This document shows, piece by piece, positions 32,895-59,969 of a DNA stretch of 64,000 nt (position 1 is the first letter of the stretch; each line of letters starts with the position of its first letter). The notes below the pieces were generated by a model, which saw only the letters and a list, made by a program, of their open reading frames with translations, was not told the DNA's origin and searched no databases. Source of the stretch: Aminobacter aminovorans (GTDB lineage Bacteria; Pseudomonadota; Alphaproteobacteria; Rhizobiales; Rhizobiaceae); contig NZ_UFSM01000001.1 in the NCBI RefSeq assembly GCF_900445235.1, positions 2,681,501 through 2,745,500 on the forward strand, written 5' to 3'. A program made the translations under genes and the position numbers.

Positions 32895-32895
32895 C

Positions 32896-36812: not shown

Positions 36813-36824
36813 AATGCGCCCTCG

Positions 36825-39461: not shown

Positions 39462-39534
39462 ATTGCGGCTACGAATTACGAATTTCCATCGGAATTTCGG
39501 ATGGCCTAGGCCTTGGAAAACAAGGAGACATGTC

Positions 39535-40008: not shown

Positions 40009-40030
40009 GCTCGACCCAGGGAGAGAGACC

Positions 40031-40426: not shown

Positions 40427-40438
40427 CTGCCGCCTGAC

Positions 40439-41026
40439 TTATCTGACCTCGTAGCCGACGTCTTCGGATGCATGGCAAAGCATTTTCCAGAAGGAGCGGG
40501 CGAAGGAGCGGAAGACGTAGAGGTCGAAGCTGTCGGGGCCGCTGCGCTGGATCTGGGTGAAGACGTCGTGATGGGTGGTCGAGGTGCCGGAACCCTGGGG
40601 AAAGGCGGCCAGCGCAAAGTCGACGGCGAAGAGCTTGGCCAGCACCCATTCCGATTTCGGGCCGCCGATTCTGATCGCCGTGCGTCCATGCGACAGGTCG
40701 GTGATCGTGCCCATCGCTGCGGTGACCTTGCCGGCAAAGGCTGTGGCAAGTCCTTCCGAAGCGTCTGATACCAGGAACTTTCCCGGAGCGAAGCCGAAGG
40801 CGCAACAGCGCTCGGACGACGCGCCGGCGCCTGCGCCGTCGGCCAGCTTGAGGCCGGTGACCGAACCGATCGTTGCCATCAGCTTCTTTTCCTCGCCCGG
40901 CCAGGCGGCAAGCTGGACAATCGAGCCGGGTGCGATCTCGGACAAGGTTACGCCGACGCCGTCGACGAAATTGCCATGCGAGCCGGGCCGGAATACCGGT
41001 TCGAGCGGTGAAAGCTGCTCAACCAT
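40439..41026 (-). CDS. soxG: Sarcosine oxidase, gamma subunit
   Basis: 195 residues from ATG 41026. It overlaps the end of soxA by 8 nt. Recognisable parts are VEQLSPLEPVFRPGSHGNF, TDLSHGRTAIRIGGPKSEWVLAKLFAVD, FPQGSGTSTTHHDVFTQIQR and FRSFARSFWKMLCHASEDVGYEV, as in heterotetrameric sarcosine oxidases. The gamma subunit has a GcvT-like fold and stabilises the complex. It is the last gene of the soxBDAG unit. Confidence 0.9.
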   Translation of the reverse strand: MVEQLSPLEPVFRPGSHGNFVDGVGVTLSEIAPGSIVQLAAWPGEEKKLMATIGSVTGLKLADGAGAGASSERCCAFGFAPGKFLVSDASEGLATAFAGKVTAAMGTITDLSHGRTAIRIGGPKSEWVLAKLFAVDFALAAFPQGSGTSTTHHDVFTQIQRSGPDSFDLYVFRSFARSFWKMLCHASEDVGYEVR

Positions 41027-44015
41027 GCATGCGCTTCCCTTCGGGATCGAAGAAGTGGTGGCTGACGATTTCCACCGGGCCGAAGCGGTTGCGCAACGGG
41101 TCGGAGATGTGAGCACGCTTGCCATGGCGCGCTTTGCCGCCGGAGACCAGGGCAAGTGCTATGTACTTGCCGAGCGCGGGCGAGAAGCAGGCGGCGGTGA
41201 TGTGGCCGAGCGATCCGTGCGGGTTGGCGGCGTCGACCTCCTCGACGATGTGCGCGCCACCGCTGAGCGGTCGGTTGTCGAGTGAGATCAGGCCGACCAG
41301 TTCGAGCCTGCCCGAGGCGGCAAGTCCTTCGCGGTCCATCATCGCCGAGCCGATGAAGGGTTTTTTCTTGGACAGCATCCAGCCGAGATGGAGGTCGCGT
41401 GCCGAGGTGCGGCCGTCGATCTCGGCACCGGTGACGTGGCCTTTTTCGATGCGCATCGTGCCGAGGGCCTCGAGCCCGTAGGGAACCATGCCGAAAGGTT
41501 TGCCGGCCTCGATCAGCGCTTCCCAGGCATGGGTGCCGTGACCGGCACCGGAATATACCTCGAAGGCCATCTCGCCTGAAAAGGAGAGCCGGCAGATCAT
41601 CACCGGTGCGCCCGAAATCTCGCCATGGACGATGCCCATGAAGGGCAGGGCCTCGTTGTCGACCCTGGTGCCGGTGACGCAGGCAGCGAGGATGTCCCGC
41701 GCCTTTGGGCCGCCGATCGCCGCGCCGGCCCACTGATCGGTGACGGAGGTCAGGTGAACCTTGAGATCCGGCCAGACGACGTCGAGGAAATATTCGAGGT
41801 GCTGCATGACCTTGCCGGCATTGGCCGTGGTCGTGGTCATCAGGAAGTCGTGTTCGCCAAGCCGCCAGGTGGTGCCGTCGTCGAAGACGAGGCCGTCCTC
41901 GCGCAGCATCAGGCCGTAGCGCGCCTTGCCGACGGGCAAGGTCGAAAAGACGTTGGAATAGATGCGGTCGAGGAACTCTGCGGCATCCGGTCCCTGGACG
42001 GCGATCTTGCCGAGCGTCGAGACGTCGACGATGCCCGCCGTTTCGCGGGTCGCTCCCGCTTCCCTGACATAGGCCTGCTCGATCGTCTCGCCGGGGCCGC
42101 CATAGATCATCGGGCGGAACCACAGGCCGGCCGAATACATCGTCGCGCCGTTTTCCAGATGCCAGTCATGCATCGGGGTCAGCCGGTCAGGCTTGAGGTC
42201 GCCGAAACGCTCGGCGGCAAGCGCGCCGACGGAGACAGGTGCGTATGGCGGGCGGAAGCGCGTCGTGCCGACCTCGGGGATCGGCTTGCCCAGGGCTTCG
42301 GCCATGATGGCGAGGCCGGGCACGTTGGAGCCTTTGCCCTGGTCGGTGGCCATGCCGAGGGTGGTGTAGCGCTTGAGATGCTCGACCGAGACGAAACCTT
42401 CGAGGTGTGCGAGGCGGACATCGTCAGCCGTCACGTCGTGCTGGAGGTCGACGAAGGCCTTGCCCTTGGCCTTGATCTCGAAGACCGGCGCCGGGTTGGG
42501 GTCGAGCGGCGCGGGTTCGACGTGGGGCAGGGTGGCGGTTTCGAGCGCCGGCTGGCCTGCCGCCTTGCGGCCGGCGGAAAAGCCTTCGGAGATGACTTCG
42601 GCCGTCGAGAAGGTTCCGTTGAAGGCGCCGGCGCCGATCCAGCCCTTGCCGGTTTCCGGCGGCAGGAAGGCCTGCAGGTCGTCGCTCCAGACCGGCCGCG
42701 CCCCGGCCTGGCTGGCGAGGTGGATGGTCGGCGACCAGCCGCCCGAAACGACTAGGCAGTCGGCGCCGATGTCGCGCGCGTTGCCCTTGGAGACACCCGA
42801 TGCGGCGGAGAATGGGGCCAGCTTGACACCGGAGAGCTTCTTGCCGCCTTCGGTGCCGATCACCGCATGGCCGGCCAAAAGTTCGGCGCCGGCCTCTGAT
42901 GCAAGCGTGCGGCAGGCCGCGGAGACGTCGGAGCGCAGGTCGGCGATGGCGACGATCCTGGCTCCAGCCTTGGCTAGAGCCGCGGCTGCGCGATAGGCGC
43001 TGTCGTTGTTGGCCAGAACGGCGATCTTTTCGCCAGCCAGCACGCCGTACTGGTTGGCATAGCGCATCGCGGCGCTGGCCATCATCACGCCCGGCCGGTC
43101 GTTGCCGGGGAACACAAGTGGCCGTTCGAAGGCACCGGTGGCGAGCACGACGTTTCTTGCCCGGATGGTCCAGTGGCGATGGCGCGGCGCACCCTTGGCG
43201 GGCGTGTCCTTGTGGTCGCTGACACGTTCGACGGCGGCCAGCGTGTTGCCGTCATAATAGCCCCAGACGGTGGTGCGCTTGAGCAGGCGGACATTGTCAT
43301 GGGTCTTGAGTTCGCCGACGACGTCGGAGGCCCAGGTTGCGGCGGGCTCGCCGTCGATCGTCTCGCCCGACCAATTGGCCGAGCCGCCGAAGCATGGATC
43401 GAGCTCAGCCAGGATGACCTGAGCGCCCGACTGTGCAGCCTCGTGCGCGGCGGCAAGGCCGGCGGGCCCGGAGCCGACGACAAGCACGTCGCAGAAGGCG
43501 TTCATGCGCTCATAACGCGACGGATCGGGCGCGTGGCCGGCGCGGCCGAGGCCGGCGGCGCGGCGGATGATCTTTTCGCAGAGCATCCAGAACCGGGTGC
43601 CCTTGAGCGGGCCGATCACCGGTCCCATGAAGGTCTTGTAGTAGAAGCCGGCGGAGATGAACTTGCCGCCGAGCTGGTTGATGGCGCTGACGTCGTAGGC
43701 GAGCGAGGGAAAGCGGTTCTGGCTGACGGCGGTGAGGCCGTCATGGATCTCGACCATCGTGGCGGGAATGTTCGGTTCGCGGACCTCGCCGCGCAGCACC
43801 GTCACCAGCGCGTTCGGCTCATCGACGCCTGATGTCAGCACGCCGCGCGGACGGTGGTACTTGAATGAGCGGCCGAACAGCGAAACCCCATTGGCAAGCA
43901 GCGCCGAGGCCAGCGTATCGCCCTGGTGGCCGGTATAGGCGGTGCCGTCGAAGGTGAAGCGGATGGTCCGCAGCCGGTCGATGCGGCCACCCGACGGTGT
44001 GCGGCGCGGGCTCAT
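41019..44015 (-). CDS. soxA: Sarcosine oxidase, alpha subunit
   Basis: 998 residues, the expected size. The N-terminus (IRFTFDGTAYTGHQGDTLASAL) is the 2Fe-2S-ferredoxin-like domain found in alpha subunits, then a pyridine-nucleotide-disulfide type NAD site (DVLVVGSGPAGLAAAHEAAQ), and the C-terminal half is a tetrahydrofolate-binding GcvT domain (FSGEMAFEVYSGAGHG, YGLEALGTMRIEKGH). The complex oxidises sarcosine to glycine with transfer of the methyl carbon to tetrahydrofolate. The start overlaps the soxD stop by ATGA (44012-44015). Confidence 0.95.
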   Translation of the reverse strand: MSPRRTPSGGRIDRLRTIRFTFDGTAYTGHQGDTLASALLANGVSLFGRSFKYHRPRGVLTSGVDEPNALVTVLRGEVREPNIPATMVEIHDGLTAVSQNRFPSLAYDVSAINQLGGKFISAGFYYKTFMGPVIGPLKGTRFWMLCEKIIRRAAGLGRAGHAPDPSRYERMNAFCDVLVVGSGPAGLAAAHEAAQSGAQVILAELDPCFGGSANWSGETIDGEPAATWASDVVGELKTHDNVRLLKRTTVWGYYDGNTLAAVERVSDHKDTPAKGAPRHRHWTIRARNVVLATGAFERPLVFPGNDRPGVMMASAAMRYANQYGVLAGEKIAVLANNDSAYRAAAALAKAGARIVAIADLRSDVSAACRTLASEAGAELLAGHAVIGTEGGKKLSGVKLAPFSAASGVSKGNARDIGADCLVVSGGWSPTIHLASQAGARPVWSDDLQAFLPPETGKGWIGAGAFNGTFSTAEVISEGFSAGRKAAGQPALETATLPHVEPAPLDPNPAPVFEIKAKGKAFVDLQHDVTADDVRLAHLEGFVSVEHLKRYTTLGMATDQGKGSNVPGLAIMAEALGKPIPEVGTTRFRPPYAPVSVGALAAERFGDLKPDRLTPMHDWHLENGATMYSAGLWFRPMIYGGPGETIEQAYVREAGATRETAGIVDVSTLGKIAVQGPDAAEFLDRIYSNVFSTLPVGKARYGLMLREDGLVFDDGTTWRLGEHDFLMTTTTANAGKVMQHLEYFLDVVWPDLKVHLTSVTDQWAGAAIGGPKARDILAACVTGTRVDNEALPFMGIVHGEISGAPVMICRLSFSGEMAFEVYSGAGHGTHAWEALIEAGKPFGMVPYGLEALGTMRIEKGHVTGAEIDGRTSARDLHLGWMLSKKKPFIGSAMMDREGLAASGRLELVGLISLDNRPLSGGAHIVEEVDAANPHGSLGHITAACFSPALGKYIALALVSGGKARHGKRAHISDPLRNRFGPVEIVSHHFFDPEGKRMHG

Positions 44016-44311
44016 GCCTTGGCTCCGGATGTGCGGCGGCCGTGGGGCGGCGCGCCATGTTCGCGGGCAAAACGCACGCTCTTGATTTCATGGGTGAGCG
44101 TGTCGCGGACGACGGCGAGATGGGCGCGGCAGCCGCCGGCGTGTTGCCAGATCTCGTTGTGGATGCCGGCCGGGTTGAGGCGGTCATAGACATAGGCGCT
44201 CCACGCCTCGGCATCGGTCGAAGCGGGATCGGGACGGCTGCGGTTGCCGTCGCCCTGATAGGCGAATTCGGAAACGTCGCGCGGGCCGCAATAGGGGCAG
44301 GTGATCAACAT
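44012..44311 (-). CDS. soxD: Sarcosine oxidase, delta subunit
   Basis: 99 residues from ATG 44311. LITCPYCGPRDVSEFAYQGD holds the CPYC zinc ligands, with further ligands in WQHAGGCRAHL, which agrees with the zinc-binding delta subunit of heterotetrameric sarcosine oxidase. Longer open frames upstream run into soxB and are not needed. It starts 10 nt after soxB ends. Confidence 0.94.
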   Translation of the reverse strand: MLITCPYCGPRDVSEFAYQGDGNRSRPDPASTDAEAWSAYVYDRLNPAGIHNEIWQHAGGCRAHLAVVRDTLTHEIKSVRFAREHGAPPHGRRTSGAKA

Positions 44312-44321
44312 ATTCGAATCC

Positions 44322-45581
44322 CTAGTGCATTCGCGGCGTCGGACCCTGGCCCTTGTCGTCGATGACGGTGCCACGGCTGAAACGGTCGAGCGTGAAGGGC
44401 GCGTTGAACTCGTGCGGCGCGTCCTTGGCGATGGTGTGGGCAAAGCAGAAGCCGGAAGCCGGCGTTGCCTTGAAGCCGCCGTAACACCAGCCGCAATTGA
44501 GATACATGCCGGGCAAGGGGCCGGTGGTGATGATCGGCGAGCCATCCATCGACATGTCGCAGACCCCACCCCATGAGCGCAGCACGCGCACGGGTGCCAG
44601 CGAAGGGAACAGCGCCAGCATCTCGCTCATCACTTCCTCGACGATGGGCAGGCTGCCGCGCTGGGCATAGGAATTGTAGCCGTCGAGGTCACCGCCATAG
44701 ACTAGGCCGCCCTTGTCGGACTGACCGACATAGAAGTGGCCCATGCCGAAGGTCAGCACGGTGTCGAGGAACGGCTTGAGCGATTCCGAGACGAAGGCCT
44801 GGAGGACGTGGCTCTCGATCGGCATGCGGTCGATGCCGGCGAGTTGCATTACCCGCCCGGTGCTGCCGGCCACGGCAACGGCGACCTTCCTGGCACGAAT
44901 CTCGCCGCGACTTGTCGAGACGCCGATGACCCGGTCGCCGTCACGCAGGAAGCCTGTGACTTCGCAATTCTCGATGATATCGACGCCGCGGCGGTCGGCA
45001 CCCCGGGCATAACCCCAGGCAACGGCATCGTGGCGGGCAGTACCCGCGCGTTCCTGCATCAGCCCGCCATAGATCGGGAAACGTGCCCGCTGCGACATGT
45101 CGAGCCCGGGGACGCGGCGACCGATCTCGGCCGGCGTCATCAGCTCGGCGTCGACGCCGAGATGGCGCATGGCGTTGCCCTTGCGGGCGAGGTCGTCGAG
45201 CTGGCCCGGCGTGTGCGCCAGGTTGAGCACGCCGCGCTGCGAGAACATGACGTTGTAGTTGAGGTCGTGGGAAAGGTTCTCCCACATCTTCATCGAGTGT
45301 TCGTAGAAGCGTGTGTTCTGCGGCAACAGGTAGTTGGAGCGGACGGCGGTGGTGTTGCGGCCGACATTGCCGGAGCCGAGATAGCCCTTTTCCAGCACGG
45401 CAACGTTGGTGATGCCGAACTCCTTGGCGAGGTAGTAGGCGGTCGACAATCCATGGCCGCCGCCGCCGATGATGACGACGTCATACGATGCCTTGGGGCT
45501 CGGCTTGCGCCATGCCGGCTTCCAGTCGCGGTTACCGCTGAGCGCGTTCTTGAGAAGCGAAAAGGCCGAATATTCCGCCAT
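44322..45581 (-). CDS. soxB: Sarcosine oxidase, beta subunit
   Basis: 419 residues. YDVVIIGGGGHGLSTAYYLAKEFG is the FAD-binding Rossmann motif, followed by VLEKGYLGSGNVGRNTT and SNYLLPQNTRFYE, highly characteristic of SoxB. The beta subunit carries non-covalent FAD and covalently bound FMN and is the site of sarcosine oxidation; the C-terminal NCGWCYGGFKATPASG is conserved. It is the first gene of soxBDAG. A 196-bp region separates it from the divergent mscS-like gene and must contain the promoter. No glyA, folD or purU follows, unlike some sox operons. Confidence 0.95.
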   Translation of the reverse strand: MAEYSAFSLLKNALSGNRDWKPAWRKPSPKASYDVVIIGGGGHGLSTAYYLAKEFGITNVAVLEKGYLGSGNVGRNTTAVRSNYLLPQNTRFYEHSMKMWENLSHDLNYNVMFSQRGVLNLAHTPGQLDDLARKGNAMRHLGVDAELMTPAEIGRRVPGLDMSQRARFPIYGGLMQERAGTARHDAVAWGYARGADRRGVDIIENCEVTGFLRDGDRVIGVSTSRGEIRARKVAVAVAGSTGRVMQLAGIDRMPIESHVLQAFVSESLKPFLDTVLTFGMGHFYVGQSDKGGLVYGGDLDGYNSYAQRGSLPIVEEVMSEMLALFPSLAPVRVLRSWGGVCDMSMDGSPIITTGPLPGMYLNCGWCYGGFKATPASGFCFAHTIAKDAPHEFNAPFTLDRFSRGTVIDDKGQGPTPRMH

Positions 45582-48888: not shown

Positions 48889-50325
48889 ATGGATGCGCGA
48901 TCAGACAACAAGATAGTACCTCTGGCGGTCGATCTCGACGGCACGCTGATCGCCAGCGATCTGTTGTGGGAAGGACTGTTTGCCCTTCTCAAGAAGAACC
49001 CGCTCGCCATCTTCATGGTGCCGTTCTGGTTGCTCAAGGGCGGCCCAGCGCGTCTCAAGCAGGCGATTGCCGAGGTGGTCGACATCGACCCGGCGACCTT
49101 GCCTTACCGGCCGGAAGTGCTGAGACGCCTGCGCGAAGAGCAGGCCAATGGGCGCCAGATCGTTCTGGCCACCGGCACGCCCCGCAAGTTCGCCGAAGCC
49201 ATCGCACGCCATCTCGGCCTGTTCGACGCGGTGCTCGCCAGTGACGGCGGCGAAAACCTGACCGCTGAACGCAAGCGCAGGGCGCTGGTGGCAGCCTATG
49301 GCGATGGCGGCTTCGATTATGCCGGCAACAGCCGCCACGACGTCAAAGTGTTCGATGCCGCGCGCGAGGCGATCGTGGTTGCGCCCGACCGGGCCGCCGC
49401 ACGCTGGCAGGCCAGCCATCAGTCCGAGCTGATCGAGACGCCGAAGCCCGACCTGCGCACCATCCGAAAGATGCTGCGCGTCCATCAATGGCTCAAGAAC
49501 GTGCTGATCGCCGTGCCGCTGGTGCTGGCGCACAAATATTTCAATCCCGAGATGCTTGTGCCGGCCATCCTGGCGTTCATCTCGTTCAGTGCCGCCGCCT
49601 CGGCCATCTACATCGTCAACGACTTCTTCGACCTGGCGCTGGACAGGGCGCACGCGACCAAGCGCGAACGGCCTTTCGCCAGCGGCAGGCTGTCGATCCC
49701 GTTCGGACTGGCGTCCGTGGCCGTGCTTCTGGTCATCAGCCTGGCAACGGCGGCCTTCACGACGATCGAGTTTGCCGGCGTTCTGCTGGTCTATCTCGTC
49801 GCCACCACCGCATATTCGCTTTCGGTCAAGCGGATGCTGCTGCTCGACGTGCTGACCCTGGCCGGGCTCTACACCTTGCGCATCCTGGCGGGTGCCGCAG
49901 CGACCGGGGTGGACGTGTCGTTCTGGCTGCTCGCCTTCTCGATCTTTTTCTTCCTCTCGCTGGCGCTGGTGAAGCGTTATGTCGAGCTGCGTTCGTCCAG
50001 CCTCAGCGTCGGCGAGCGTATCGCCGGTCGTGGCTATCGCATCGAGGACCAGGAGATCGTTGCCCAGGCCGGCATGGCGTCGGCGTTTTCCTCGGCGCTG
50101 GTTCTGGCGCTCTACATCGACAGCAGCGCAGTGCGCGAGCTCTACGAACATCCCTGGCTGGTCTGGCCGCTGGCCCCGATCGTGCTCTATCTCACCATGC
50201 GTATTTGGATCCTGGCGCGGCGCGATGAACTGCATGACGATCCCGTCGTCTTCATCATTCGTGACTGGCGCAGTCAGATCGTCGTTTTCGCCGGCGCGGT
50301 GCTGCTTGTGGTGGCGGGCCTGTGA
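48889..50325 (+). CDS. HAD phosphatase-UbiA prenyltransferase fusion (DPPR-synthase-like)
   Basis: 478 residues from ATG 48889. Residues 1-190 are a HAD domain: LAVDLDGTLIASD is motif I and IVLATGTPRKFAEAIA is motif II. Residues about 200-478 are a UbiA-type membrane domain with about nine spans; LRVHQWLKNVLIAVPL opens it, and the first Asp-rich motif is NDFFDLALDRAHATKRERP (NDxxDxxxDxxxxxKxxRP). That motif and the LRVHQWxKN start match the decaprenylphosphoryl-5-phosphoribose synthase branch (mycobacterial UbiA/Rv3806c; rhizobial NoeC-like). The fused phosphatase could remove the 5'-phosphate afterwards. It couples to the DprE1-like gene by GTGA. Confidence 0.88.
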   Translation: MDARSDNKIVPLAVDLDGTLIASDLLWEGLFALLKKNPLAIFMVPFWLLKGGPARLKQAIAEVVDIDPATLPYRPEVLRRLREEQANGRQIVLATGTPRKFAEAIARHLGLFDAVLASDGGENLTAERKRRALVAAYGDGGFDYAGNSRHDVKVFDAAREAIVVAPDRAAARWQASHQSELIETPKPDLRTIRKMLRVHQWLKNVLIAVPLVLAHKYFNPEMLVPAILAFISFSAAASAIYIVNDFFDLALDRAHATKRERPFASGRLSIPFGLASVAVLLVISLATAAFTTIEFAGVLLVYLVATTAYSLSVKRMLLLDVLTLAGLYTLRILAGAAATGVDVSFWLLAFSIFFFLSLALVKRYVELRSSSLSVGERIAGRGYRIEDQEIVAQAGMASAFSSALVLALYIDSSAVRELYEHPWLVWPLAPIVLYLTMRIWILARRDELHDDPVVFIIRDWRSQIVVFAGAVLLVVAGL

Positions 50326-51680
50326 GCGTGGGACCGGCCCGTTACCAGAGCTTTGGCCGTGCCAATCCGGGCGCAAGCCAGGCGATGGATATCGCCGAGG
50401 CAACGCGGCTTTTGGCCAGCGGGACGGCACGCGCCGGATCGCTGCTCGCTTATGGCAATGGCCGCAGCTATGGCGACAGCTGCCAGAACAGCGCCGGCGC
50501 CGTCGTCGACATGCGGCCGCGCAAGCGCGTCATCGCATTCAATGCCGAGACCGGCCTGATCGAAGCCGAGGCCGGCACGCTGCTGGCCGACATCATCGCC
50601 TATGCCGCCCCACACGGGTTTTTCCCGGCTGTCGTGCCGGGGACGCAGTTCGTCACGCTCGGCGGCGCCATCGCCAACGACGTGCATGGCAAGAACCACC
50701 ACCGTCGCGGCAGTTTTGGCTGCCATGTCGAACGCCTGACATTGCTGCGCTCGGACGGGCGCAGCTATGCCTGCTCGGCCGGCGAGAACGCCCGGCTGTT
50801 CTGGGCGACGATCGGCGGCATGGGGCTGACCGGCATCATCCTGTCCGCCACGATCCGGCTGATGCGGGTACCCTCGCTCGACATCGCCGAGACGGTGAAG
50901 CCTTTCGGCAGCCTGGGCGAATATTTCGATCTCGCCGACGCCGCCGACCGCGACAACGAATATGCCGTTGCCTGGATCGACCAGATGGCCGGCGGCAAGC
51001 ATGCCGGCCGCGGCTTGCTGCTTGCCGGCAACCACGCCGCCTATGGCGCGCGGACGGCCGAACGCGGCACGGCAAGACTGTCGGTGCCGTTCCAGCCGCC
51101 ATTGACCTTGCTCAACCGGCCCTTCCTGAGGCTGTTCAACGCCGCTTATGGCTGGCGGCGCGGCCGCCTCAGGGAAAGCCAGGCGAGCTACCAGAAGTTC
51201 TTCTTTCCGCTCGACGGTGTTGCCGACTGGAACCGGCTCTACGGTCCGAGCGGGCTTTACCAGCACCAGAGCGTCGTGCCTGAAGCTGCGGCGCGCGAAA
51301 CCATGCCGGCATTGCTGGCGGCGGCGCGGCGCGCCGGGCAGGGCTCGTTCCTGACCGTGCTCAAACGTTTTGGCAGCCAGCGTTCGCCAGCTTTGCTGTC
51401 CTTCGCGCGCCCGGGCTACACGCTGACGCTCGATTTTCCGAACCATGGCCGGCGCACGCTGGAACTGCTCGCCGAACTCGACCGGATCACCGTCGGCGCC
51501 GGTGGCGCGGTCAATCCCTACAAGGACGCGCGCATGTCGGCTGAGACATTCGCGGCTTCGTTCCGGGACTGGCAGCGGCTCGAGGCGATGCGCGATCCGG
51601 CATTCATGTCCGACTTCTGGGCCCGGACCGCCGGCCGCCTGGGCGGGCGCAATGGCGAGACGGCGCAGGCGGCCGAGTAG
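50322..51680 (+). CDS. DprE1-like FAD-dependent oxidase
   Basis: 452 residues from GTG 50322, overlapping the previous stop. It resembles mycobacterial DprE1 throughout: YGNGRSYGDSCQNSAGAVVD, GTQFVTLGGAIANDVHGKNHH, LFWATIGGMGLTGII, FFFPLDGVADWNRLYGPSG and NPYKDARM, the last carrying the lysine near the active site. The His in DVHGKNHH lies where other VAO-fold enzymes attach FAD; DprE1 itself holds FAD non-covalently. At the site of DprE1 Cys387 (ICVDF) this protein has TLTLDF, so a threonine replaces the cysteine. It should oxidise C2' of a polyprenylphosphoryl pentose to the keto form. It is the second gene of the five-gene operon. Confidence 0.88.
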   Translation: MSVGPARYQSFGRANPGASQAMDIAEATRLLASGTARAGSLLAYGNGRSYGDSCQNSAGAVVDMRPRKRVIAFNAETGLIEAEAGTLLADIIAYAAPHGFFPAVVPGTQFVTLGGAIANDVHGKNHHRRGSFGCHVERLTLLRSDGRSYACSAGENARLFWATIGGMGLTGIILSATIRLMRVPSLDIAETVKPFGSLGEYFDLADAADRDNEYAVAWIDQMAGGKHAGRGLLLAGNHAAYGARTAERGTARLSVPFQPPLTLLNRPFLRLFNAAYGWRRGRLRESQASYQKFFFPLDGVADWNRLYGPSGLYQHQSVVPEAAARETMPALLAAARRAGQGSFLTVLKRFGSQRSPALLSFARPGYTLTLDFPNHGRRTLELLAELDRITVGAGGAVNPYKDARMSAETFAASFRDWQRLEAMRDPAFMSDFWARTAGRLGGRNGETAQAAE

Positions 51681-51779
51681 CCGCTTGTTAGAGAAATGCG
51701 GAAAAAGTTCAAATTGCCGGGAAAGCTTCACAGAATATCAGGGGCTTTCCGATAGGTTGTGCGAAGGACGGACAAAGCA

Positions 51780-52214
51780 ATGAAATATATCCTCTTCATC
51801 CTTTTCACAGTGATGACCAATGCCGCGGCCCAGCTGATGCTGAAGCAGGGCATGATGTCTCTTGGGCCGCTTTCTTTCGAAGGCACCAATCCGCTGATCA
51901 AGATACTGCAGATCGTCTTCAGCCCATGGGTCTTCGCCGGACTGCTGACTTTCGTCATCTCTATGGCGTCGCACCTCTATGTGCTGTCCAAGGTCGAGCT
52001 CAGCTTCGCCTATCCCTTCCTCAGCCTAGCCTATGTGGCGGTGGCGGTGTTTGCCTACTTCGTCTTTCATGAAGACCTGAATGCCTGGCGCATCGCCGGC
52101 ATCGCCTTCATCTGCGTCGGCACCGTGCTGATCGCCCAGAGCGGCCGCGACCATGGCGAAGTTGTCGCCGCGGCCTCTACCGAACCCACCAAGACAAGCG
52201 AGCTTTTGCGATGA
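51780..52214 (+). CDS. Four-span SMR/EamA-like membrane protein (candidate lipid-sugar flippase)
   Basis: 144 residues from ATG 51780. Four membrane spans: MKYILFILFTVMTNAAAQLMLK, FSPWVFAGLLTFVISMASHLYVL, LSFAYPFLSLAYVAVAVFAYF and AWRIAGIAFICVGTVLIAQSG. The spacing and the QLMLKQG motif in span 1 recall ArnE/ArnF and small multidrug-resistance proteins, which flip undecaprenyl-phosphate-aminoarabinose in polymyxin resistance. Its start of translation follows the oxidase by 99 nt, and its end overlaps the SDR start (ATGA at 52211-52214). Confidence 0.78.
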   Translation: MKYILFILFTVMTNAAAQLMLKQGMMSLGPLSFEGTNPLIKILQIVFSPWVFAGLLTFVISMASHLYVLSKVELSFAYPFLSLAYVAVAVFAYFVFHEDLNAWRIAGIAFICVGTVLIAQSGRDHGEVVAAASTEPTKTSELLR

Positions 52215-53218
52215 GACACATCATTTTCGGAGGCGACGGCTTCGTCGGTCGTCATCTTGCGCCCAAACTGATCGCCGACGGCGAAGAGGTTGTCGTTGCC
52301 GACATCGTCAAGAGCGATCTGGCGCATTACCGCAACGCACGCTTTGTCCATTGCGACGTGACCGATCCCGCCGCGATCGCCGCCGTTGGCATCAAGGCCG
52401 ACGACATGGTCTACAACCTGTCGGCCAAAATGCTGTCGCCGCTGCAGGTGCGGGCCAAGCGCCACGACTTCTTTTTCCCGGTCAACTATTTCGGTACCGA
52501 GAACATCATCAAGGCGATGGACCATGCGGCAGCGCCGAGGCTGGTCCACTACACCACCGACATGATCTACGGCCACACCGTGACCCATCCGATGACCGAA
52601 GAGCATCCGGTGGCGCCGCTCGGCGAATATGGCTGGTCGAAGCAGAAGACCGAGGAACTGGCGGCCGAGTGGCGGACGCGCGGCATGAACATCTCGCTGT
52701 TCCGCCCGCGCCTGATCATCGGGCCCGGGCGTCTCGGCATTCTGGAGAAGCTGTTCAAGCTGATCGACTGGAACCTGCCGGTGCCGATGATCGGTTCGGG
52801 CAGGAATCCATACCAATTCATCTCGGTGTTCGACTGCGCCGAGGCAGCGCGGCTTGCCTGGAAGGCCGGCGTGCCGAACGAGGCCTACAATCTCGGTTCG
52901 CTCAATCCGCCGCCGGTGCGCAAGCTGCTCGGCGACCTGGTCAAGCATGCCGGTTCGAAGTCGATCCTGCTGCCGACGCCGGGCTGGGCGGTCAAGCGGA
53001 CGCTCGACCTGCTCGACCTGATGAACATGCCGATCATGGATCCCGAGCAGTATCTGATCGCCGACGAGGAGTGCGTGCTCGACGTCTCCAAGGGCGAGCG
53101 CCAGCTCGGCTGGGTGCCGCAATACCGCGACGAGGACATGCTCATCGCAGCCTACAAGGAATATCGCGCCAAAAAGGACGGCCTCGCTGCGTCGACGCAG
53201 CACGCCCCGGCTGAATAG
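52211..53218 (+). CDS. Extended SDR / NAD-dependent epimerase-like protein
   Basis: 335 residues. The Rossmann motif is RHIIFGGDGFVGRHLAPKL (GxxGxxG), with DIVKSDLA after strand 2, and the catalytic pair is EYGWSKQKTEE (YxxxK) with VHYTTDMIYG supplying the Ser/Thr position. FRPRLIIGPG and FISVFDCAEAARLAW are also typical of sugar-nucleotide SDRs. In mycobacteria the second step after DprE1 is performed by DprE2, a classical SDR; this one is an extended SDR, so it is a functional guess that it reduces, isomerises or epimerises the keto product. It is 5 nt before the aminotransferase. Confidence 0.8.
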   Translation: MRHIIFGGDGFVGRHLAPKLIADGEEVVVADIVKSDLAHYRNARFVHCDVTDPAAIAAVGIKADDMVYNLSAKMLSPLQVRAKRHDFFFPVNYFGTENIIKAMDHAAAPRLVHYTTDMIYGHTVTHPMTEEHPVAPLGEYGWSKQKTEELAAEWRTRGMNISLFRPRLIIGPGRLGILEKLFKLIDWNLPVPMIGSGRNPYQFISVFDCAEAARLAWKAGVPNEAYNLGSLNPPPVRKLLGDLVKHAGSKSILLPTPGWAVKRTLDLLDLMNMPIMDPEQYLIADEECVLDVSKGERQLGWVPQYRDEDMLIAAYKEYRAKKDGLAASTQHAPAE

Positions 53219-53223
53219 AGGAT

Positions 53224-54702
53224 ATGAACATGACGCTTGTCACCAAGCCGGATACGGCCCATTCGCATGCCGTCGCGGTTGCTCCGGCAATGACTTCGGC
53301 AAAGCTCGCCAAGCCGAACCTGATGTCGGTCGAGCAGGCCAAGGCGCTCGACGTCGCCAGGATGACCGACCTGTTCAAGGCGCATCTCAACCCCGGCCAG
53401 CTGCATTTCATGAAGCTGCTCGGCTTCCACAAGATCAAGATCGAGCGCGCCGAGGGCATGCACTACATCGATCAGAACGGCCGCAAGATCCTCGATTTCT
53501 TCGGCGGCTTCGGTTCGCTGGCGCTCGGCCACAACCATCCGCGCGTGCTCGAGGCGCGCAAGAAGTTCCAGGACGAGAAGCGCCACGAAATCGGCATCGC
53601 CTTCATGTCGCAATACGCCTCGGCGCTGGCCTACAATCTGGCGCAGATCTCGCCCGGCGATCTCGACATGGTGTTTTTCGGCTCGTCCGGTTCGGAAGCC
53701 ATGGAAGCCGCGGTCAAGCTCGCCGAGCGTGCTGCGGGTCCGGCACGTCCCAAGATCGTCTATGCCGAGAACTCGTTCCACGGAAAGACCAAGGGCGTGC
53801 TCTCGGTCACCGACGGCGCGCTCTATCGCGGTGAGTTCAAGCTCACCGAAAACACCGTGCGGGTGCCGTTCGGCGACATCGATGCCATCGAGAAGGCGTT
53901 CCGTTCCGATCCGGCCATCGGCGCCATCGTGCTCGAGACGATCCAGGGTGGCGGCGGCATCAACAAGGCGCCGGCCGCGTTCTGGCACAAGCTGCGCGCG
54001 CTGTGCGACCAGTATGGCGTGATCTGGGTCGCCGACGAGGTGCAGTGCGGCGTCGGCCGTTCGGGCCGTTTCTATGCCTTCGAGCACTATGACGTGGTGC
54101 CCGACATCACTGCGGTTGCCAAGTCGCTGGGCGGCGGCAAGGCAGCGATGGCTGCAATGATCGCACGCCGCGACGTCTACATGAAGGCCTATGGCACGCC
54201 GAAGACCGCGATGATCCATGCCATGGCGACCTTCGGCGGTATCGGCGAAGGCTGCATCACGGCCATCGAGACGCTCAACGTGCTCTATGACGAAGGCCTG
54301 ATCGAGAATTCGGCCGACACCGGCGCCTATCTCCTGGCGCGGCTGGAGGAGCTCCAGGCCAAGTACCCCAAGATCATCAAAGAGGTTCGCGGCCAGGGAC
54401 TGATGGTCGGGCTCGAGTTCCACGACTTCTCGCAGACGCTGCCGATGGTGCTGCGCCCGGTGGTCAGCGTGCTCGACGACAAGCTCAAGGGGTCGCTGTC
54501 GGGCTTCGTCGGTGCGCTGCTGCTGCGTGACTACGACGTGCTGGTGGCCTTCACCGAGTACAACCGCAATGTCGTGCGCCTGCTGCCGCCGCTGACCTGC
54601 AGCCGCGCCGATGTCGACGTGCTGATCGCAGCCCTCGACAGCCTGCTCGGCCGCGGCATCGTTTCGATCGTCAAGGACTTCGTCAAAAGCCAGGTCAAGT
54701 AA
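53224..54702 (+). CDS. Class III PLP-dependent aminotransferase
   Basis: 492 residues. Class III features: ILDFFGGFGSLALGHNHPRVL, VFFGSSGSEAMEAAVKLAERA, IVYAENSFHGKTKGVLSVT, WVADEVQCGVGRSGRFYAFEHY and the probable PLP lysine in ITAVAKSLGGGKAA. It belongs to the ornithine/4-aminobutyrate-like group but has an N-terminal extension of about 45 residues and a C-terminal helix. Within this operon it could transaminate a keto-sugar made by the oxidase; a role on an ordinary diamine is the alternative. The transcription unit ends at a strong terminator at 54726. Confidence 0.85.
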   Translation: MNMTLVTKPDTAHSHAVAVAPAMTSAKLAKPNLMSVEQAKALDVARMTDLFKAHLNPGQLHFMKLLGFHKIKIERAEGMHYIDQNGRKILDFFGGFGSLALGHNHPRVLEARKKFQDEKRHEIGIAFMSQYASALAYNLAQISPGDLDMVFFGSSGSEAMEAAVKLAERAAGPARPKIVYAENSFHGKTKGVLSVTDGALYRGEFKLTENTVRVPFGDIDAIEKAFRSDPAIGAIVLETIQGGGGINKAPAAFWHKLRALCDQYGVIWVADEVQCGVGRSGRFYAFEHYDVVPDITAVAKSLGGGKAAMAAMIARRDVYMKAYGTPKTAMIHAMATFGGIGEGCITAIETLNVLYDEGLIENSADTGAYLLARLEELQAKYPKIIKEVRGQGLMVGLEFHDFSQTLPMVLRPVVSVLDDKLKGSLSGFVGALLLRDYDVLVAFTEYNRNVVRLLPPLTCSRADVDVLIAALDSLLGRGIVSIVKDFVKSQVK

Positions 54703-54725: not shown

Positions 54726-54753
54726 AAAGCCGGGTCTCGACCCGGCTTTTTTT
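54726..54753 (+). terminator. Rho-independent terminator of the polyprenyl-sugar operon
   Basis: AAAGCCGGG, loop TCTCGA, CCCGGCTTTTTTT: a perfect stem followed by seven Ts, 24 nt after the aminotransferase stop. Confidence 0.93.
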
Positions 54754-54863
54754 GTTAGCTGGTTGCCGGAGGGCGTTGTCGCTGTCGGCGGGAGGCGGTT
54801 GTCCGGCTTCCGCAAGCGCGGCATGTTCGGATGGCGCGGCGGAGCAAAAATCGGGAGGAGCGA

Positions 54864-55343
54864 ATGGTCAAGCCGATCATGAATCTGGACGAGGTCGAGT
54901 TCGACGACATCGAGGAGAATGGCATCTACACGTCGAAGAGGGCGTCGATAAGCCGTCACATCGGCGCGCAAAACCTCGGCTACAACCTCACAGTCCTGCC
55001 GCCGGGCAAGGTTCAGTGCCCGTTCCACAACCATCGCGGCGAAGAGGAGATGTTCTTCATCCTGGAAGGTGAGGGCGAGCTACGCTTCGGCGACAAGCGC
55101 TTTCCGATCCGCCAGCACGACGTCATCGCCTGCCCAACCGGGGGAGCTGAAGTGGCCCACCAGATCATCAACACCGGCACGACGACGATGCGGTATCTGG
55201 CATTGTCGACGCTGGTCGATGCCTGCGAGTACCCGGACTCGGGCAAGGTGATGGTCGTCTCCGGCAAGCCGGGATTTCCCGGGCTCCGCAAGATGTTCCG
55301 GGCCGAGAATACGACCGACTACTACGACCGCGAGAGCAGGTAA
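54864..55343 (+). CDS. Cupin-domain protein
   Basis: 159 residues from ATG 54864, which has GGGAGGAG at correct spacing; earlier in-frame starts lack this. Cupin motif 1 is CPFHNHRGEEEMFFILEGEGE with metal-binding His, His and Glu, and motif 2 is near VAHQIINTGTTTMRYL. It is a single-domain metal cupin. It stands alone between the operon terminator and the convergent membrane glycosyltransferase. Possible roles include sugar isomerase, epimerase or ligand sensor; I cannot distinguish them. Confidence 0.8.
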   Translation: MVKPIMNLDEVEFDDIEENGIYTSKRASISRHIGAQNLGYNLTVLPPGKVQCPFHNHRGEEEMFFILEGEGELRFGDKRFPIRQHDVIACPTGGAEVAHQIINTGTTTMRYLALSTLVDACEYPDSGKVMVVSGKPGFPGLRKMFRAENTTDYYDRESR

Positions 55344-55366: not shown

Positions 55367-57115
55367 CTACTTGTCCAGCGCAGCGAAAAACCTGGGATGG
55401 ACGAAGGCGTCGTAGCAGGAATCGAGCTGGATACGGCGGTGCTGGGTTAGTGCGCTCTTGTACATGTCGTAGAGTGCGGCATTGGCCGTGGTCGGCGGGC
55501 AGGTAGGCAGGAGGACGAGGTCGGTGTCCGCCACCGCCGCCTCCTCGGTCGAGCCGGGGTCGGGCACGGCGCGCATCGGATCGGCGCCGATGGCGATGTG
55601 CAGCGGTGCCGAGCGGTCGAGCAGCCAGGGGAAGGGGTTGACGAAGTTCAGCGACATCAGCGTGTTGAAGTGGACGCCCTTGTCGGCTTCCAGCTTGCGG
55701 ATGGAATCGACCGCCGTGTCGACATTGCTGAGATAGGTGACCTGGAAGTCGAAATCGGAATAGAGCAGCGGCGTTGGCAACTCGCCGGCATTGGTGAGGT
55801 CGGTATAGAGCTGCCGATGCTCCGGGTAGAATTTCAGCATATGGTCGACACGGACGGCGACCTCGCTGCGCATGTTGATGGCGCCGAGCGTAGCCAGATT
55901 GCGTTGCGCGATGGGCTGGTTCTTGAGCGCGCCGATATAGGCGCGGGCCGCGCGCTCGACGACGAACAACGCCGGCGGCAATATGACGGCCGCCGCCAGT
56001 CCCAGGACCGAGAGCAGCACAATAGGCTTGGCAAGCAGCCTGGACGCCTTGAGCAGGATGGCGACGATGAGCGGCGCCAGGAAGATGAACGCCTGGCTGC
56101 CGGTGTTCTGCGTCTCGAACAGCACGCCGGCGAACAGGACAGCGAGCAGCCAAAGCCCGTTATGGTCGAGAAGCCCCGAAACCGCTGTCGCAAGCGACGT
56201 CTTGCGGTCGGCGGAAAAGCGCTCGGACAGCTTGTGCCGGTCGGACCAGAGCAGGACCAGGGCAAGCGCAGACGTCGCCAGCACGACACCGAAATTGATC
56301 GAGGTGGACTGCAGGAAGCGCGGCAACAGCGTACCGCCGTTCATCATCACCAACTTGAGGATGTCGGTGATGTAGTGGCTGACCATGCCGCTGGACAGTT
56401 CGATGACGGCAAGGACGGCGGTGAAGATGACCAGCGCCTCCAGCGCGTAGCGAAACTTCACGCGGCCGGCGAAGAACGCATAGGCGGCGATGACGCCGCC
56501 GGCCACGAAACCGGTGATCTTGAGGAAGAACAGCGCCGTCATTGTGAGCGAAATCAGCGCAACCAGCAGGTAGCGATTGCGCACGAACATCAGCGCCGCC
56601 ACCAGCACATACAGCATCTGGCAGACCTGGCGGTTATAGATGCCGAATGCGTCGGAACCGGGGAACGGATAGAATTCGCGCGTGTTGAAGGGCAGCAGCG
56701 CGAACAGCAAGAAAGGCACCAGCAGCGCAAAGGCTATGCCGCGCGAGCGCTGGCCGACATCCCACAGCACCAGCGCCATCAGCGGCGCGGTGACGGCGAG
56801 CAGCGACCAGTGCGCCACGAGTGCCGGCTGGGCGTTGGGAAACAGCGTCACCCAGCCTGCAAACAGGTAATAGCCGAGCGGGCCGACGGGGGTGAAGAAG
56901 TCGTTGATCGGCACCTGGCCGTCGAAAATGCGGTTCGCCGCATCGTAATAGATCAGCACGTCCCAATACATCGGACCGATCGGTACGGAGACCGGCAATG
57001 CCAGCAAGGTGCAAACCAGCAGAAATGCGACAGCCAAAAGAAAAAGCGGGCTTGTTGTCTTGGCCTTGAGGCGTGAACCCAGGGATGCAGCAGGCGGCGT
57101 GAAAGTGGTGTTCAT
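55367..57115 (-). CDS. GT-C fold membrane glycosyltransferase (family 39/83-like), probable polyprenyl-P-sugar user
   Basis: 582 residues from ATG 57115; a further ATG at 57163 is less likely. About 11-12 spans. After the first span the loop PMYWDVLIYYDAANRIFDGQVPINDFF carries the Asp expected as catalytic base in GT-C enzymes, followed by FTPVGPLGYYLFAGW. The C-terminal 150 residues are soluble and probably periplasmic (FYPEHRQLYTDLTNAGE, SCYDAFVHPRFF). GT-C enzymes take sugars from polyprenyl phosphate on the outer face of the membrane. The convergent operon that seems to make such a donor is only 600 bp away, so this is a candidate acceptor enzyme. The ~290-bp region upstream shares its space with the divergent dehydrogenase gene. 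Confidence 0.75.
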   Translation of the reverse strand: MNTTFTPPAASLGSRLKAKTTSPLFLLAVAFLLVCTLLALPVSVPIGPMYWDVLIYYDAANRIFDGQVPINDFFTPVGPLGYYLFAGWVTLFPNAQPALVAHWSLLAVTAPLMALVLWDVGQRSRGIAFALLVPFLLFALLPFNTREFYPFPGSDAFGIYNRQVCQMLYVLVAALMFVRNRYLLVALISLTMTALFFLKITGFVAGGVIAAYAFFAGRVKFRYALEALVIFTAVLAVIELSSGMVSHYITDILKLVMMNGGTLLPRFLQSTSINFGVVLATSALALVLLWSDRHKLSERFSADRKTSLATAVSGLLDHNGLWLLAVLFAGVLFETQNTGSQAFIFLAPLIVAILLKASRLLAKPIVLLSVLGLAAAVILPPALFVVERAARAYIGALKNQPIAQRNLATLGAINMRSEVAVRVDHMLKFYPEHRQLYTDLTNAGELPTPLLYSDFDFQVTYLSNVDTAVDSIRKLEADKGVHFNTLMSLNFVNPFPWLLDRSAPLHIAIGADPMRAVPDPGSTEEAAVADTDLVLLPTCPPTTANAALYDMYKSALTQHRRIQLDSCYDAFVHPRFFAALDK

Positions 57116-57407: not shown

Positions 57408-59969
57408 ATGGCTGAGTTTCCGAAAACGGCAAAGGTCGTCATCGTTGGGTTGGGCGGCATCGTGGGCGCATCGATTGCCCATCACCTGATCGAGCGCGGC
57501 TGGACCGACATCGTCGGCATCGACAAGTCGGGCGTGCCGACCGACATCGGCTCGACGGCGCATGCCTCTGACTTCTGCTACACCACCAGCCACGACTATC
57601 TCTCGGTCTGGACCACGCAGTACTCGATCGATTTCTACGAGAAGATGGGCCACTACGCCCGCATCGGCGGCCTCGAGGTGGCGCGCGCCGGTGACGACAG
57701 CTGGATGGAGGAGATCAAGCGCAAGCTTTCCTCGGCCAAGGCGTTCGGCACCCGCGCGCATTATGTTTCGCCCTCCGAGATCAAGGCGATGTTCCCGCTG
57801 ATCGAGGAAGATCAGGTGATGGGCGGCATGTTCGATCCCGATGCGGGCCTGGTCATCCCGCGCTCGCAGACGGTCGCAGGCAAGCTTGTCGATGCCGCCG
57901 AGAAGTCCGGCAAGCTCCAGGTTTTCGGCAACACCCCGGCGACGTCGCTTATCGTCGAGGGCGGCCGCATCAAGGGCGTCGTCACCCATCGCGGCACCAT
58001 CATGGCCGACCACGTCGTCGTCTGCGCCGGCATCTGGGGCCGCCTGATCGCCGAAATGGTCGGCGAGGACCTGCCGGTCATGCCGGTCGACCACCCGCTG
58101 ACCTTCTTCGGCCCGTATAACGAGTTCGAGGGCACCGGCAAGGAAATCGGCTTCCCGCTGCTGCGCGACCAGGGCAACTCAGCCTATATGCGTGACACCG
58201 GCGACCCCAGGACTACCGAGGGCGGCCAGATCGAGTGGGGCTACTACGAGCAGACCAATCCGCGCCTCTGCCATCCGCGCGAGCTCCTGGAAAAACATGA
58301 GGCGCGCCTGTCGCCGTCGCAGCGCGATCTCGACATGGAACAGATCATGGAGCCGCTTGAGCGCGCCATGCAGCTGACGCCGATCCTTGGCGAGATCGGC
58401 TACAACGAGAGCCACTCCTTCAACGGCCTGCTGCAGGTTTCCGCTGCCGGCGGCGCCTCCTGCGGCGAAAGCCAGAAGGTGCGCGGCCTCTGGTACTGTG
58501 TCGCCATCTGGGTCAAGGACGGCCCCGGCTACGGCAAGCTGATCGCCGACTGGATGACCGACGGCCGCACCGAGATCGACCACAACTCAATCGACTATGC
58601 CCGCTTCTACCCGCACCAGCTGGAAGAGAAGTTTATCGAAGGCCGCACCTTCGAGGCGGCCCAGAAGATCTATTTCCCGGCCGTTCATACCCGCGAGCCC
58701 TATGCCACCGGCCGCAACATCAAGCGCTCGCCCTTCTACGAACGTGAAGTAGAGCTCGGCGGCTACTTCATGGAACTTGGCGGCTGGGAGCGTGCGCATG
58801 GCTACAAGGCCAATGAGCACCTGCTGGAGAAGTACGGCAACCGCGTGCCGGTGCGCGAGAACGAGTGGGACTCCAGGCACTTCTGGCGCGTCTCCAACGC
58901 CGAGCATCTGGCAATGAGCGAGGATTGCGGCATCGTCAACCTCAGCCACTTCCACATGGTCGATATAGAAGGCCCAGACCATGTCGAGCTCTTGGAATGG
59001 CTCTGCGCTGCCAAGATCGGCGGCGAGGGCAACATCGGCAAGGGCGTCTACACCCACTTCCTCGACGACGAGGGTATGGTGCGCGCCGACTTCACCGTCT
59101 TCCGCATGGCCGACCGCTGCCGGCTGGTGAACGGTGCCGACGCCGGCCCTCGCGACTTCCACTACATGAAGCGTGTCGCCGAGGATCGTGGCCTCGACGT
59201 CACCATCACCGACACCTCGGAAAAATTCATCACCATCGGCATCTGGGGTCCGAACGCCCGCGAGACGCTGAAGAAGGTGGTGGCGAACCCTGATGGTCTC
59301 GACCAGGAAAACTTCGCCTTCGCCGCGATCAAGCAGATCGAGATCGCGGGCAAGCCGGTCACCGCCTTCCGCATCTCCTATGTCGGCGAGCAGGGCTGGG
59401 AATTGCACATGAAATACGAGGATGGCCTCGCCGTCTGGGACGCGCTGCGCTCGACCGGCGTCATGGCCTTCGGCGTCGAGACCTATGCCAATTCGCGCCG
59501 CATGGAAAAGAGCCTGCGCCTGCAGAACGCCGACCTGCTCACCCAGTACAATCTCATCGAGGCCGATCTTGCCCGCCCGAAGGTCAAGGATGTCGATTTC
59601 CGCGGCAAGGCCAAACATCTTGAATACAAAGCGCGTGAGCACCAGCCGGCTATGCTGTGCACGCTGGTCATGACTGACAACACCGACAGGAATGGCGTCA
59701 AGCGTTACCCGGTCGGCACGCTGCCGGTCATGGACCCGCAGACGGGCGAAGTGCTTGTCGACGAGCTCGGTCGCCGGTCCTACACGACCTCGATCGCCTT
59801 CGGCCCGACCATCGGCAAGAATATCGCGCTGGCCTATCTGCCGCACGCCTATTGCCAGGAAGGCCGCAAGCTGAATGTCGAGTATTTCGCCGAGACCTAT
59901 CCTGTCGAGGTTGTCGGAATCGGCTACAAGCCGCTCTATGATCCGGAGAACCTCAAGCCGCGCAGCTGA
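57408..59969 (+). CDS. Divergent FAD-dependent oxidoreductase with GcvT domain (DMGDH-like)
   Basis: 853 residues. It has the same three-part layout as the two dehydrogenases at 29-36 kb but is more divergent. The FAD motif is VVIVGLGGIVGASIAHHLIERG, a variant of GGGxxG. The former TSGxTWHAAG region reads TDIGSTAHASDF, keeping a His (H52) at about the covalent FAD site. The middle domain has GRNIKRSPFYEREVELGGYF and GGWERAHGYKANEH, and the C-terminal GcvT region has ISYVGEQGWELHM and ETYANSRRMEKSLR. Several cysteines (FCYTT, ASCGESQK) are unusual. It probably demethylates a larger or different N-methyl compound. No adjacent pathway genes are present. Confidence 0.85.
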   Translation: MAEFPKTAKVVIVGLGGIVGASIAHHLIERGWTDIVGIDKSGVPTDIGSTAHASDFCYTTSHDYLSVWTTQYSIDFYEKMGHYARIGGLEVARAGDDSWMEEIKRKLSSAKAFGTRAHYVSPSEIKAMFPLIEEDQVMGGMFDPDAGLVIPRSQTVAGKLVDAAEKSGKLQVFGNTPATSLIVEGGRIKGVVTHRGTIMADHVVVCAGIWGRLIAEMVGEDLPVMPVDHPLTFFGPYNEFEGTGKEIGFPLLRDQGNSAYMRDTGDPRTTEGGQIEWGYYEQTNPRLCHPRELLEKHEARLSPSQRDLDMEQIMEPLERAMQLTPILGEIGYNESHSFNGLLQVSAAGGASCGESQKVRGLWYCVAIWVKDGPGYGKLIADWMTDGRTEIDHNSIDYARFYPHQLEEKFIEGRTFEAAQKIYFPAVHTREPYATGRNIKRSPFYEREVELGGYFMELGGWERAHGYKANEHLLEKYGNRVPVRENEWDSRHFWRVSNAEHLAMSEDCGIVNLSHFHMVDIEGPDHVELLEWLCAAKIGGEGNIGKGVYTHFLDDEGMVRADFTVFRMADRCRLVNGADAGPRDFHYMKRVAEDRGLDVTITDTSEKFITIGIWGPNARETLKKVVANPDGLDQENFAFAAIKQIEIAGKPVTAFRISYVGEQGWELHMKYEDGLAVWDALRSTGVMAFGVETYANSRRMEKSLRLQNADLLTQYNLIEADLARPKVKDVDFRGKAKHLEYKAREHQPAMLCTLVMTDNTDRNGVKRYPVGTLPVMDPQTGEVLVDELGRRSYTTSIAFGPTIGKNIALAYLPHAYCQEGRKLNVEYFAETYPVEVVGIGYKPLYDPENLKPRS

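Follow-up and report, generated by a model that had tools for sequence, protein, structure and literature searches.

In the ArnBCDEFT pathway, a UDP-sugar is aminated by a DegT-family enzyme, and undecaprenyl-phosphate-linked 4-amino-4-deoxy-L-arabinose (undecaprenyl-phosphate-L-Ara4N) is moved by ArnE/F to a GT-C transferase. The mycobacterial decaprenylphosphoryl-arabinose (DPA) pathway employs a UbiA phosphoribosyltransferase and DprE1, and the available text of one report links noeCHOP of Azorhizobium to this decaprenyl-phosphoryl-arabinose route (PMC5080398). The three-component pentofuranose system of Citrobacter youngae O1/O2 comprises, in the available parts of Kelly et al. 2024 (PMC11127046), a HAD-UbiA protein making polyprenyl-phosphate ribose, a four-helix ArnE-like flippase, a GT-C partner and an optional SDR epimerase; the report covers ribofuranose (Ribf), xylofuranose (Xylf) and arabinofuranose (Araf), and the word "aminotransferase" is absent from its main text. 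Here, we analyzed a 64,000-nt stretch of Aminobacter aminovorans DNA (the window; assembly GCF_900445235.1, contig NZ_UFSM01000001.1, positions 2,681,501 to 2,745,500) that carries a five-gene operon combining such parts with a class III aminotransferase (AT). Across genomes, the AT accompanies UbiA, DprE1 and SDR genes and is exclusive with the reductase DprE2, and we propose that the operon, with the AT in the reductase's place, probably makes a previously undescribed cell-surface amino-sugar building block. The features concerned are as follows (window coordinates):

48889..50325, (+) strand: HAD-UbiA fusion, predicted polyprenyl-phosphate phosphoribosyltransferase with a 5′-phosphate phosphatase domain (NF006088, PF01040, PF12710)
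50322..51680, (+) strand: DprE1-like flavin adenine dinucleotide (FAD) oxidase, predicted 2′-oxidation of the lipid-linked pentose (PF01565, NF053785)
51780..52214 (ATG at 51780), (+) strand: four-span small transporter of the ArnE/ArnF kind (SMR), predicted flippase (PF00892, NF002816)
52211..53218, (+) strand: extended SDR, predicted C3 epimerase of the lipid-linked pentose (PF01370)
53224..54702, (+) strand: class III pyridoxal phosphate (PLP) aminotransferase (AT), predicted amination of the keto-pentose lipid (PF00202)
54726..54749, (+) strand: intrinsic-terminator-like stem-loop with T run, 10 pairs, 6 of them G-C
55367..57115, (−) strand: membrane protein with about 10 hydrophobic stretches, candidate GT-C pentosyltransferase

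We interpret the locus as a variant of the three-component pentofuranose system (PMC11127046). It has the UbiA and HAD components, by homology and by residues, and an ArnE/EmrE-related four-helix flippase that scores below the ArnF and ArnE cut-offs, but it differs from the C. youngae system in the addition of DprE1 and a class III AT, in lacking DprE2 and in having its GT-C candidate on the opposite strand. A preliminary description of this DNA had matched the operon to the mycobacterial and noeCHOP route; the shared UbiA and DprE1 (with conserved residues) bear this out, but the system reported in 2024 proved closer. In contrast to the mycobacterial and noeCHOP route, HAD is fused to UbiA here, an AT and an extended SDR are present, and no DprE2 match exceeded 117 bits in the AT genomes. 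Specifically, the best match to the DprE2 model NF005489 in the window's own genome (G000) reached 117 bits, compared with at least 246 bits in 17 other genomes, so the DprE2 of the DPA/noeCHOP pathway was not found there. As in the Arn pathway, the end product would be an amino-pentose on a lipid carrier, delivered to a GT-C transferase by an ArnE/F-like protein, whereas amination is predicted here to be performed by a class III enzyme on a lipid-linked furanose, the AT matching PF00202 only and not the ArnB-type DegT family. No O-antigen cluster was recognized among the window proteins examined.

In the open-licence literature, judged by titles and abstract openings, there was no report of a lipid-linked amino-pentofuranose and nothing relevant on an aminotransferase within this pathway, and the available portions of PMC6274867 and PMC5644692 contain nothing on amino-pentoses. 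A lead to an "unidentified amino sugar" in Mesorhizobium loti was rejected, as the lipid A backbone consists of diamino-glucose and galacturonic acid according to the available text of PMC4103559.

The aminotransferase and DprE2 across genomes

Each of 160 genomes of the order (Rhizobiales), including G000, was searched with every operon protein, with thresholds of E ≤ 1e-40 for UbiA and SDR, E ≤ 1e-30 for DprE1 and at least 68% identity for AT orthologs. DprE2 was sought with NF005489 (cut-off 267), the best-fitting model for the DprE2-like genes adjoining DprE1, and the best 9 or 16 candidates per genome were scored (16 for DprE2). We found AT orthologs in seven genomes, the six besides G000 at 68–80% identity, while E ≤ 1e-60 added 11 genomes in which all matches were at most 36% identical, which makes the orthologs a sharp class. 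UbiA was detected in 37 genomes (in 34 also across the HAD part), SDR in 8 and DprE1 in 24, and all seven AT genomes hold HAD-UbiA, DprE1 and SDR; two DprE1 genomes (G037 and G122) had no UbiA match at the threshold. NF005489 scored at least 246 bits in 17 genomes (13 above the cut-off), the next best match being 126 bits. All 17 hold DprE1, and DprE2 adjoins it in 16, the exception being G043. Thus, the 24 DprE1 genomes divide into 7 with AT and no DprE2 and 17 with DprE2 and no AT, with none holding both and none holding neither (Fisher p 3e-6, ignoring relatedness). The co-occurrence spans differing gene orders and six families within this sample.

A larger set was obtained with an SDR profile, which matched 20 of 397 genomes of the order and 3 of 284 of the class, i.e., 22 distinct genomes, since G000 is in both. 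Nineteen of these contain the AT (at least 810 bits), and all 19 contain DprE1, 18 of them on the AT's contig; UbiA was present in all 17 AT genomes with loci examined (G489 and G509 left out). None of the 19 had an NF005489 match above 117 bits, with all candidates scored in 13 genomes and 77 scored in the other 6. Because this set was picked by SDR, the independent tests of AT-SDR linkage are the 160-genome AT search and the class-level AT profile (E ≤ 1e-120), which matched 2 of 284 genomes, own included. DprE1 was found in 20 of the 22 genomes, and the two without it are G510 and G317, whose SDRs are distant (335 and 301 bits); neither DprE1 nor AT was matched there, and the DprE2 model reached at most 111 bits. 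G043, which holds DprE1 and DprE2, is the sole SDR-ortholog genome lacking the AT. The preliminary description had named as fatal to its proposal that the AT or SDR should usually occur apart from UbiA and DprE1, which is not the case (DprE1 in 19/19 AT and 20/22 SDR genomes). Membership of the AT, once rated the weakest point, now has the strongest support, owing to the mutual exclusion of AT and DprE2.

Homologous loci were taken as the best 80 of 399 stretches encoding AT relatives in genome_contigs; they come mostly from close kin (Aminobacter, Mesorhizobium, Pseudaminobacter and Nitratireductor), so that distant loci weigh more. The exact five-gene order, proposed earlier as something to check in relatives, is kept in 78 of the 80, the other two being interrupted by a contig end and accounting for all misses (SDR in 80, DprE1 in 79, SMR in 79 and UbiA in 78 loci). 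Elsewhere the genes are rearranged: SDR-AT diverges from UbiA-DprE1 in G038, DprE1 follows AT in G158, DprE1 and AT are convergent in G658, and G330 has the order SMR-SDR-UbiA-DprE1-AT with a short UbiA that lacks HAD, while in G554 SMR-SDR-AT lie on one contig and UbiA-DprE1-PMT-like on a second. A plasmid search with the SDR gave 16 matching records, of which a Neorhizobium one at 82% holds the five genes in order, and a phage search with HAD-UbiA gave one weak match. On Azospirillum sp. B510 plasmid pAB510f, an SDR relative (45%) adjoins a 572-amino-acid hypothetical membrane protein and several glycosyltransferases; neither UbiA nor DprE1 was matched in the fetched stretch.

In a DprE1 tree of 32 rows, from which 4 of the 17 DprE2-type genomes were left out, the AT/DprE2 label needs three changes. 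G043 (DprE2, no AT) lies inside the AT clade (96/95), and DprE1 of G330, which has the AT, groups with the DprE2 type (100/99) on a long branch. In the SDR tree, G043 again falls among the AT genomes (93/93, short of the tool's star), with G510 and G317 outside on very long branches. Thus, the AT/DprE2 state has switched on more than one occasion among related DprE1s, two of the events being based on a single genome each. The G043 loci (L087 and L193) comprise a UbiA-DprE1-SMR-SDR cluster, in which the SDR gene meets a convergent GT-C-like gene with no space for an AT between, and a DprE2 on another contig with no further pathway genes in its 20 kb. G043 is a candidate for either a naturally converted aminating pathway or another maker of lyxofuranose. 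The DprE1 residues checked are identical in AT and DprE2 types. Next to lysine K401, residues 398 and 400 are N and Y in the AT lineage versus Y and A in the DprE2 lineage; these are lineage markers, as at the residues that separate the two types G043 DprE1 has AT-type letters and that of G330 has DprE2-type letters at four of five positions (the fifth being a gap) or neither type's usual letter. In five other genomes (G019, G132, G065, G010 and G085; L069–L073), DprE1-DprE2 precedes an extended SDR that belongs to a different family, 58–100% alike among the five and about 25% to the window's SDR.

The distant SDRs bear on the role of this enzyme. In G510, HAD-UbiA, an ArnE-like SMR (32%) and an SDR (43%) are immediate neighbors, and the RPRLIIGPGRLGIL.KLF and PVPMIGSGRN stretches are retained in this SDR. 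The same gene kinds make up orf15/orf14/orf13 of C. youngae O2, where, in the available text of Kelly et al. 2024, deletion of orf13 turns Xylf into Ribf (PMC11127046). Because its relatives occur without DprE1 in a gene set like that of C. youngae O2, the SDR is probably a C3 epimerase rather than a ketoreductase, by an analogy to ORF13 that concerns gene kinds and not sequence.

Operon structure, gene families and neighborhood

All five open reading frames (ORFs) are present on the same strand and appear intact (48889–54702). ORFs and profile matches agree with the gene order and families reported in the preliminary description, and its GTGA overlap (50322–50325), ATGA overlap (52211–52214) and 5-nt gap (53219–53223) were all recovered, together with a 99-nt gap between the DprE1-like and SMR genes (51681–51779) that it had not mentioned. 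The strong terminator it had claimed is the 10-pair stem with T run at 54726–54749; the number of terminator-like sites is not above that in shuffles (4 versus a mean of 4.8), so only the strength of this stem is unusual. A scan for sigma-70-type promoters returned no sites.

HAD-UbiA scores 640.6 bits against NF006088 (cut-off 351), with matches to PF01040 and, for the HAD domain, PF12710. Its solved relative is decaprenyl-phosphate phosphoribosyltransferase 8j8j, with which the UbiA part has K203, N204, N244, D245, D248, D252, R253, K258, R259 and R261 in common, and the HAD part carries the acidic motifs DLDGT (at 15) and GNSRHD (at 146). The DprE1-like protein matches PF01565 and scores 328.5 bits with NF053785, under that model's cut-off of 500; it retains equivalents of Y60, H132, K134, W230, Q334, Q336 and K418, as do 32 of 32 aligned homologs, with Thr for C387, Thr for N385 and Phe for Y314, the roles of these positions in DprE1 being those we assume. 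The SMR protein has four hydrophobic stretches, matches PF00892 and scores 53.8 bits with the ArnF model NF002816 (cut-off 99), its ArnE score likewise lying under the cut-off. The SDR carries GGDGFVG (GxxGxxG), TTDMIYG and YGWSK (YxxxK). For the AT, PF00202 (287 bits) is the sole Pfam match, the nearest solved chains are 4ppm (labelled Aminotransferase) and putrescine aminotransferase 4uox, and the lysine K300 and D271, which we take to serve in the PLP motifs, are in place; the model of the hopanoid aminotransferase HpnO was not among the 25 listed of 69 NCBIfam matches.

From its sequence, the protein encoded at 55367–57115 is a candidate GT-C transferase. Its start was placed at 57115, near homologs being 582 amino acids long. 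Three of the 120 listed homologs are labelled as glycosyltransferases of RgtA/B or 4-amino-4-deoxy-L-arabinose type (cut labels) and most others as hypothetical or unnamed; there was no Pfam match, and its profile gave no match among PDB sequences. In 79 of the 80 loci, the AT is followed within 3.5 kb by a GT-C-like gene, which belongs to an ~400-amino-acid membrane-protein family in 68 and to the 582-amino-acid homologs in 11, with neither in one locus; the two main families showed no significant match to each other. Among 17 more diverse loci (L081–L087, L191 and L194–L202), 12 hold a member of one of three GT-C-like families, seven of these 12 being the ones that define the families. A PMT_2 match was above the cut-off for one member (L084) and below it for another (L086), L191 encodes an unclassified multi-span protein, and no member was seen in L195, L199, L200 and L202, the genome of L200 (G554) having one that adjoins UbiA-DprE1 on its other contig. 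In G053, where neither DprE1 nor AT was matched, a sequence adjoining HAD-UbiA, cut by the edge of the fetched stretch, shows weak and partial similarity to the window's membrane protein (34%, 47 bits).

The cupin gene at 54831–55343 was ruled out as a part of the operon, being present in only 2 of the 80 loci. Sarcosine oxidase-type genes (soxA, soxB and DAO-GCV_T fusions) flank the operon at 29272–45581 and 57408–59969, and matches to the flanking 44322–45581 and 57408–59969 genes occur in 76 and 77 of the 80 loci, respectively, a few of them weak. Farther away, at 821–9881, lies a prophage-like remnant with tail fibre genes (phrog_5616, 604 bits), an acyltransferase (PF01757) and a GH108 endolysin.

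Proposed pathway and competing explanations

We are highly confident that the locus encodes a system for a lipid-linked pentofuranose and that the AT is part of it. By homology to characterized families, UbiA and HAD would convert phosphoribosyl pyrophosphate (PRPP) and polyprenyl phosphate to polyprenyl-P-ribose, DprE1 would turn C2′ into a ketone, and the ArnE/F-like protein would later flip the lipid. Comparative genomics suggests the remaining steps: the AT would aminate the 2′-ketone in place of the reduction by DprE2 known from the arabinose pathway, the SDR would epimerize another carbon, probably C3, before or after oxidation or amination, and the neighboring GT-C protein would move the sugar onto a surface glycan. 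Since the AT is tied to UbiA, DprE1 and SDR and is exclusive with DprE2, it most likely replaces DprE2 and aminates the 2′-keto-pentofuranosyl lipid. We consider it fairly probable that the AT acts on the DprE1 product, and have similar, moderate confidence that the operon makes a polyprenyl-phosphate-linked amino-pentofuranose that is flipped for a GT-C transferase; the amination itself, the carbon it affects and the final glycan are predictions. The likely product is a 2-amino-2-deoxy-pentofuranose in the ribo or arabino configuration, or xylo or lyxo if C3 is inverted. An evenly balanced proposal is that DprE1 and the AT jointly form an "amino-epimerase" that turns polyprenyl-phosphate ribofuranose into a 2-amino-2-deoxy-pentofuranosyl phospholipid donor, with the AT/DprE2 exchange acting as a switch between neutral and cationic sugars. 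A PRPP- and polyprenyl-phosphate-based pentose pathway with an added aminotransferase, flippase and GT-C-like partner, as first suggested, is supported. Of the two fates then offered for the 2′-keto intermediate, amination in place of reduction is the more probable, and the SDR is probably an epimerase rather than the reductase in view of G043 and G510.

Several observations weigh against amination of this intermediate by the AT. The usual substrates of class III aminotransferases are aldehydes or ketones of open-chain form, whereas ring ketones of sugars are mostly handled by the DegT family, and the AT's nearest relatives (PigE, putrescine and acetylornithine aminotransferases) presumably act on aldehydes. 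Amination of a C2′ ring ketone by a class III enzyme would be chemically unusual, and it is mainly for this reason that our confidence is held at a moderate level. A DprE2 may also have been missed, as the best 16 candidates per genome were scored in the 160-genome search and up to 77 in the larger set, a number exceeded by the candidates in 6 of its 19 AT genomes. The swap is based on small and phylogenetically clustered counts, and the two exceptions that make AT/DprE2 a swap are one genome each, namely G043, whose DprE2 lies on a separate contig and is assumed to serve the pathway, and G330, with its long-branch DprE1. Finally, the residues that separate AT-type from DprE2-type DprE1 were rejected as an AT signature, because they follow lineage and not AT presence.

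Other explanations place the AT differently. The SDR could replace DprE2 as the ketoreductase, giving lipid-linked arabinofuranose, with the AT adding nitrogen elsewhere, e.g., at a C5 aldehyde; class III enzymes presumably favor aldehydes, the SDR is present in 19/19 AT genomes, in which the DprE2 model scored at most 117 bits, and no other ketoreductase was identified, the DprE2 model being the only one searched. However, G043 holds an SDR ortholog and DprE2 without the AT, the G510 relative sits with HAD-UbiA and SMR and no DprE1 match, i.e., without a keto substrate, and none of the five genes resembles a second sugar oxidase, all of which make such a route unlikely. The good similarity of the AT to putrescine and acetylornithine aminotransferases would also suit an enzyme that acts away from the sugar lipid and makes a putrescine- or ornithine-like small amine, or an amino donor of that kind, to be attached to glycan or lipid, but we regard this as quite improbable, as it leaves the DprE2 exclusion and the linkage to UbiA, DprE1 and SDR across rearranged loci unexplained. 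Still less credible is an ordinary arabinose or xylose three-component system with the AT as a linked passenger. Although the remaining parts all fit the known pentofuranose system in its available description (PMC11127046), we reject this explanation because the AT co-occurs with DprE1 through rearrangements, in differing gene orders and six families, and the DprE2 it would require was not found in any of the 19 AT genomes. Replacement of DprE2 by the AT remains our preferred reading.

Implications for rhizobial surface glycans

To our knowledge, amino sugars are made on nucleotides or sugar phosphates. If the proposed pathway is correct, amination on a membrane-lipid-bound sugar would offer a distinct route to amino sugars, and the donor would represent a new class of activated building block for rhizobial surface glycans. 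Pentofuranose systems would be extended to a cationic sugar, which could alter surface charge. Through the exchange of AT and DprE2, the fate of the DprE1 product, which is an intermediate of mycobacterial arabinose synthesis as well, also becomes testable in soil bacteria.

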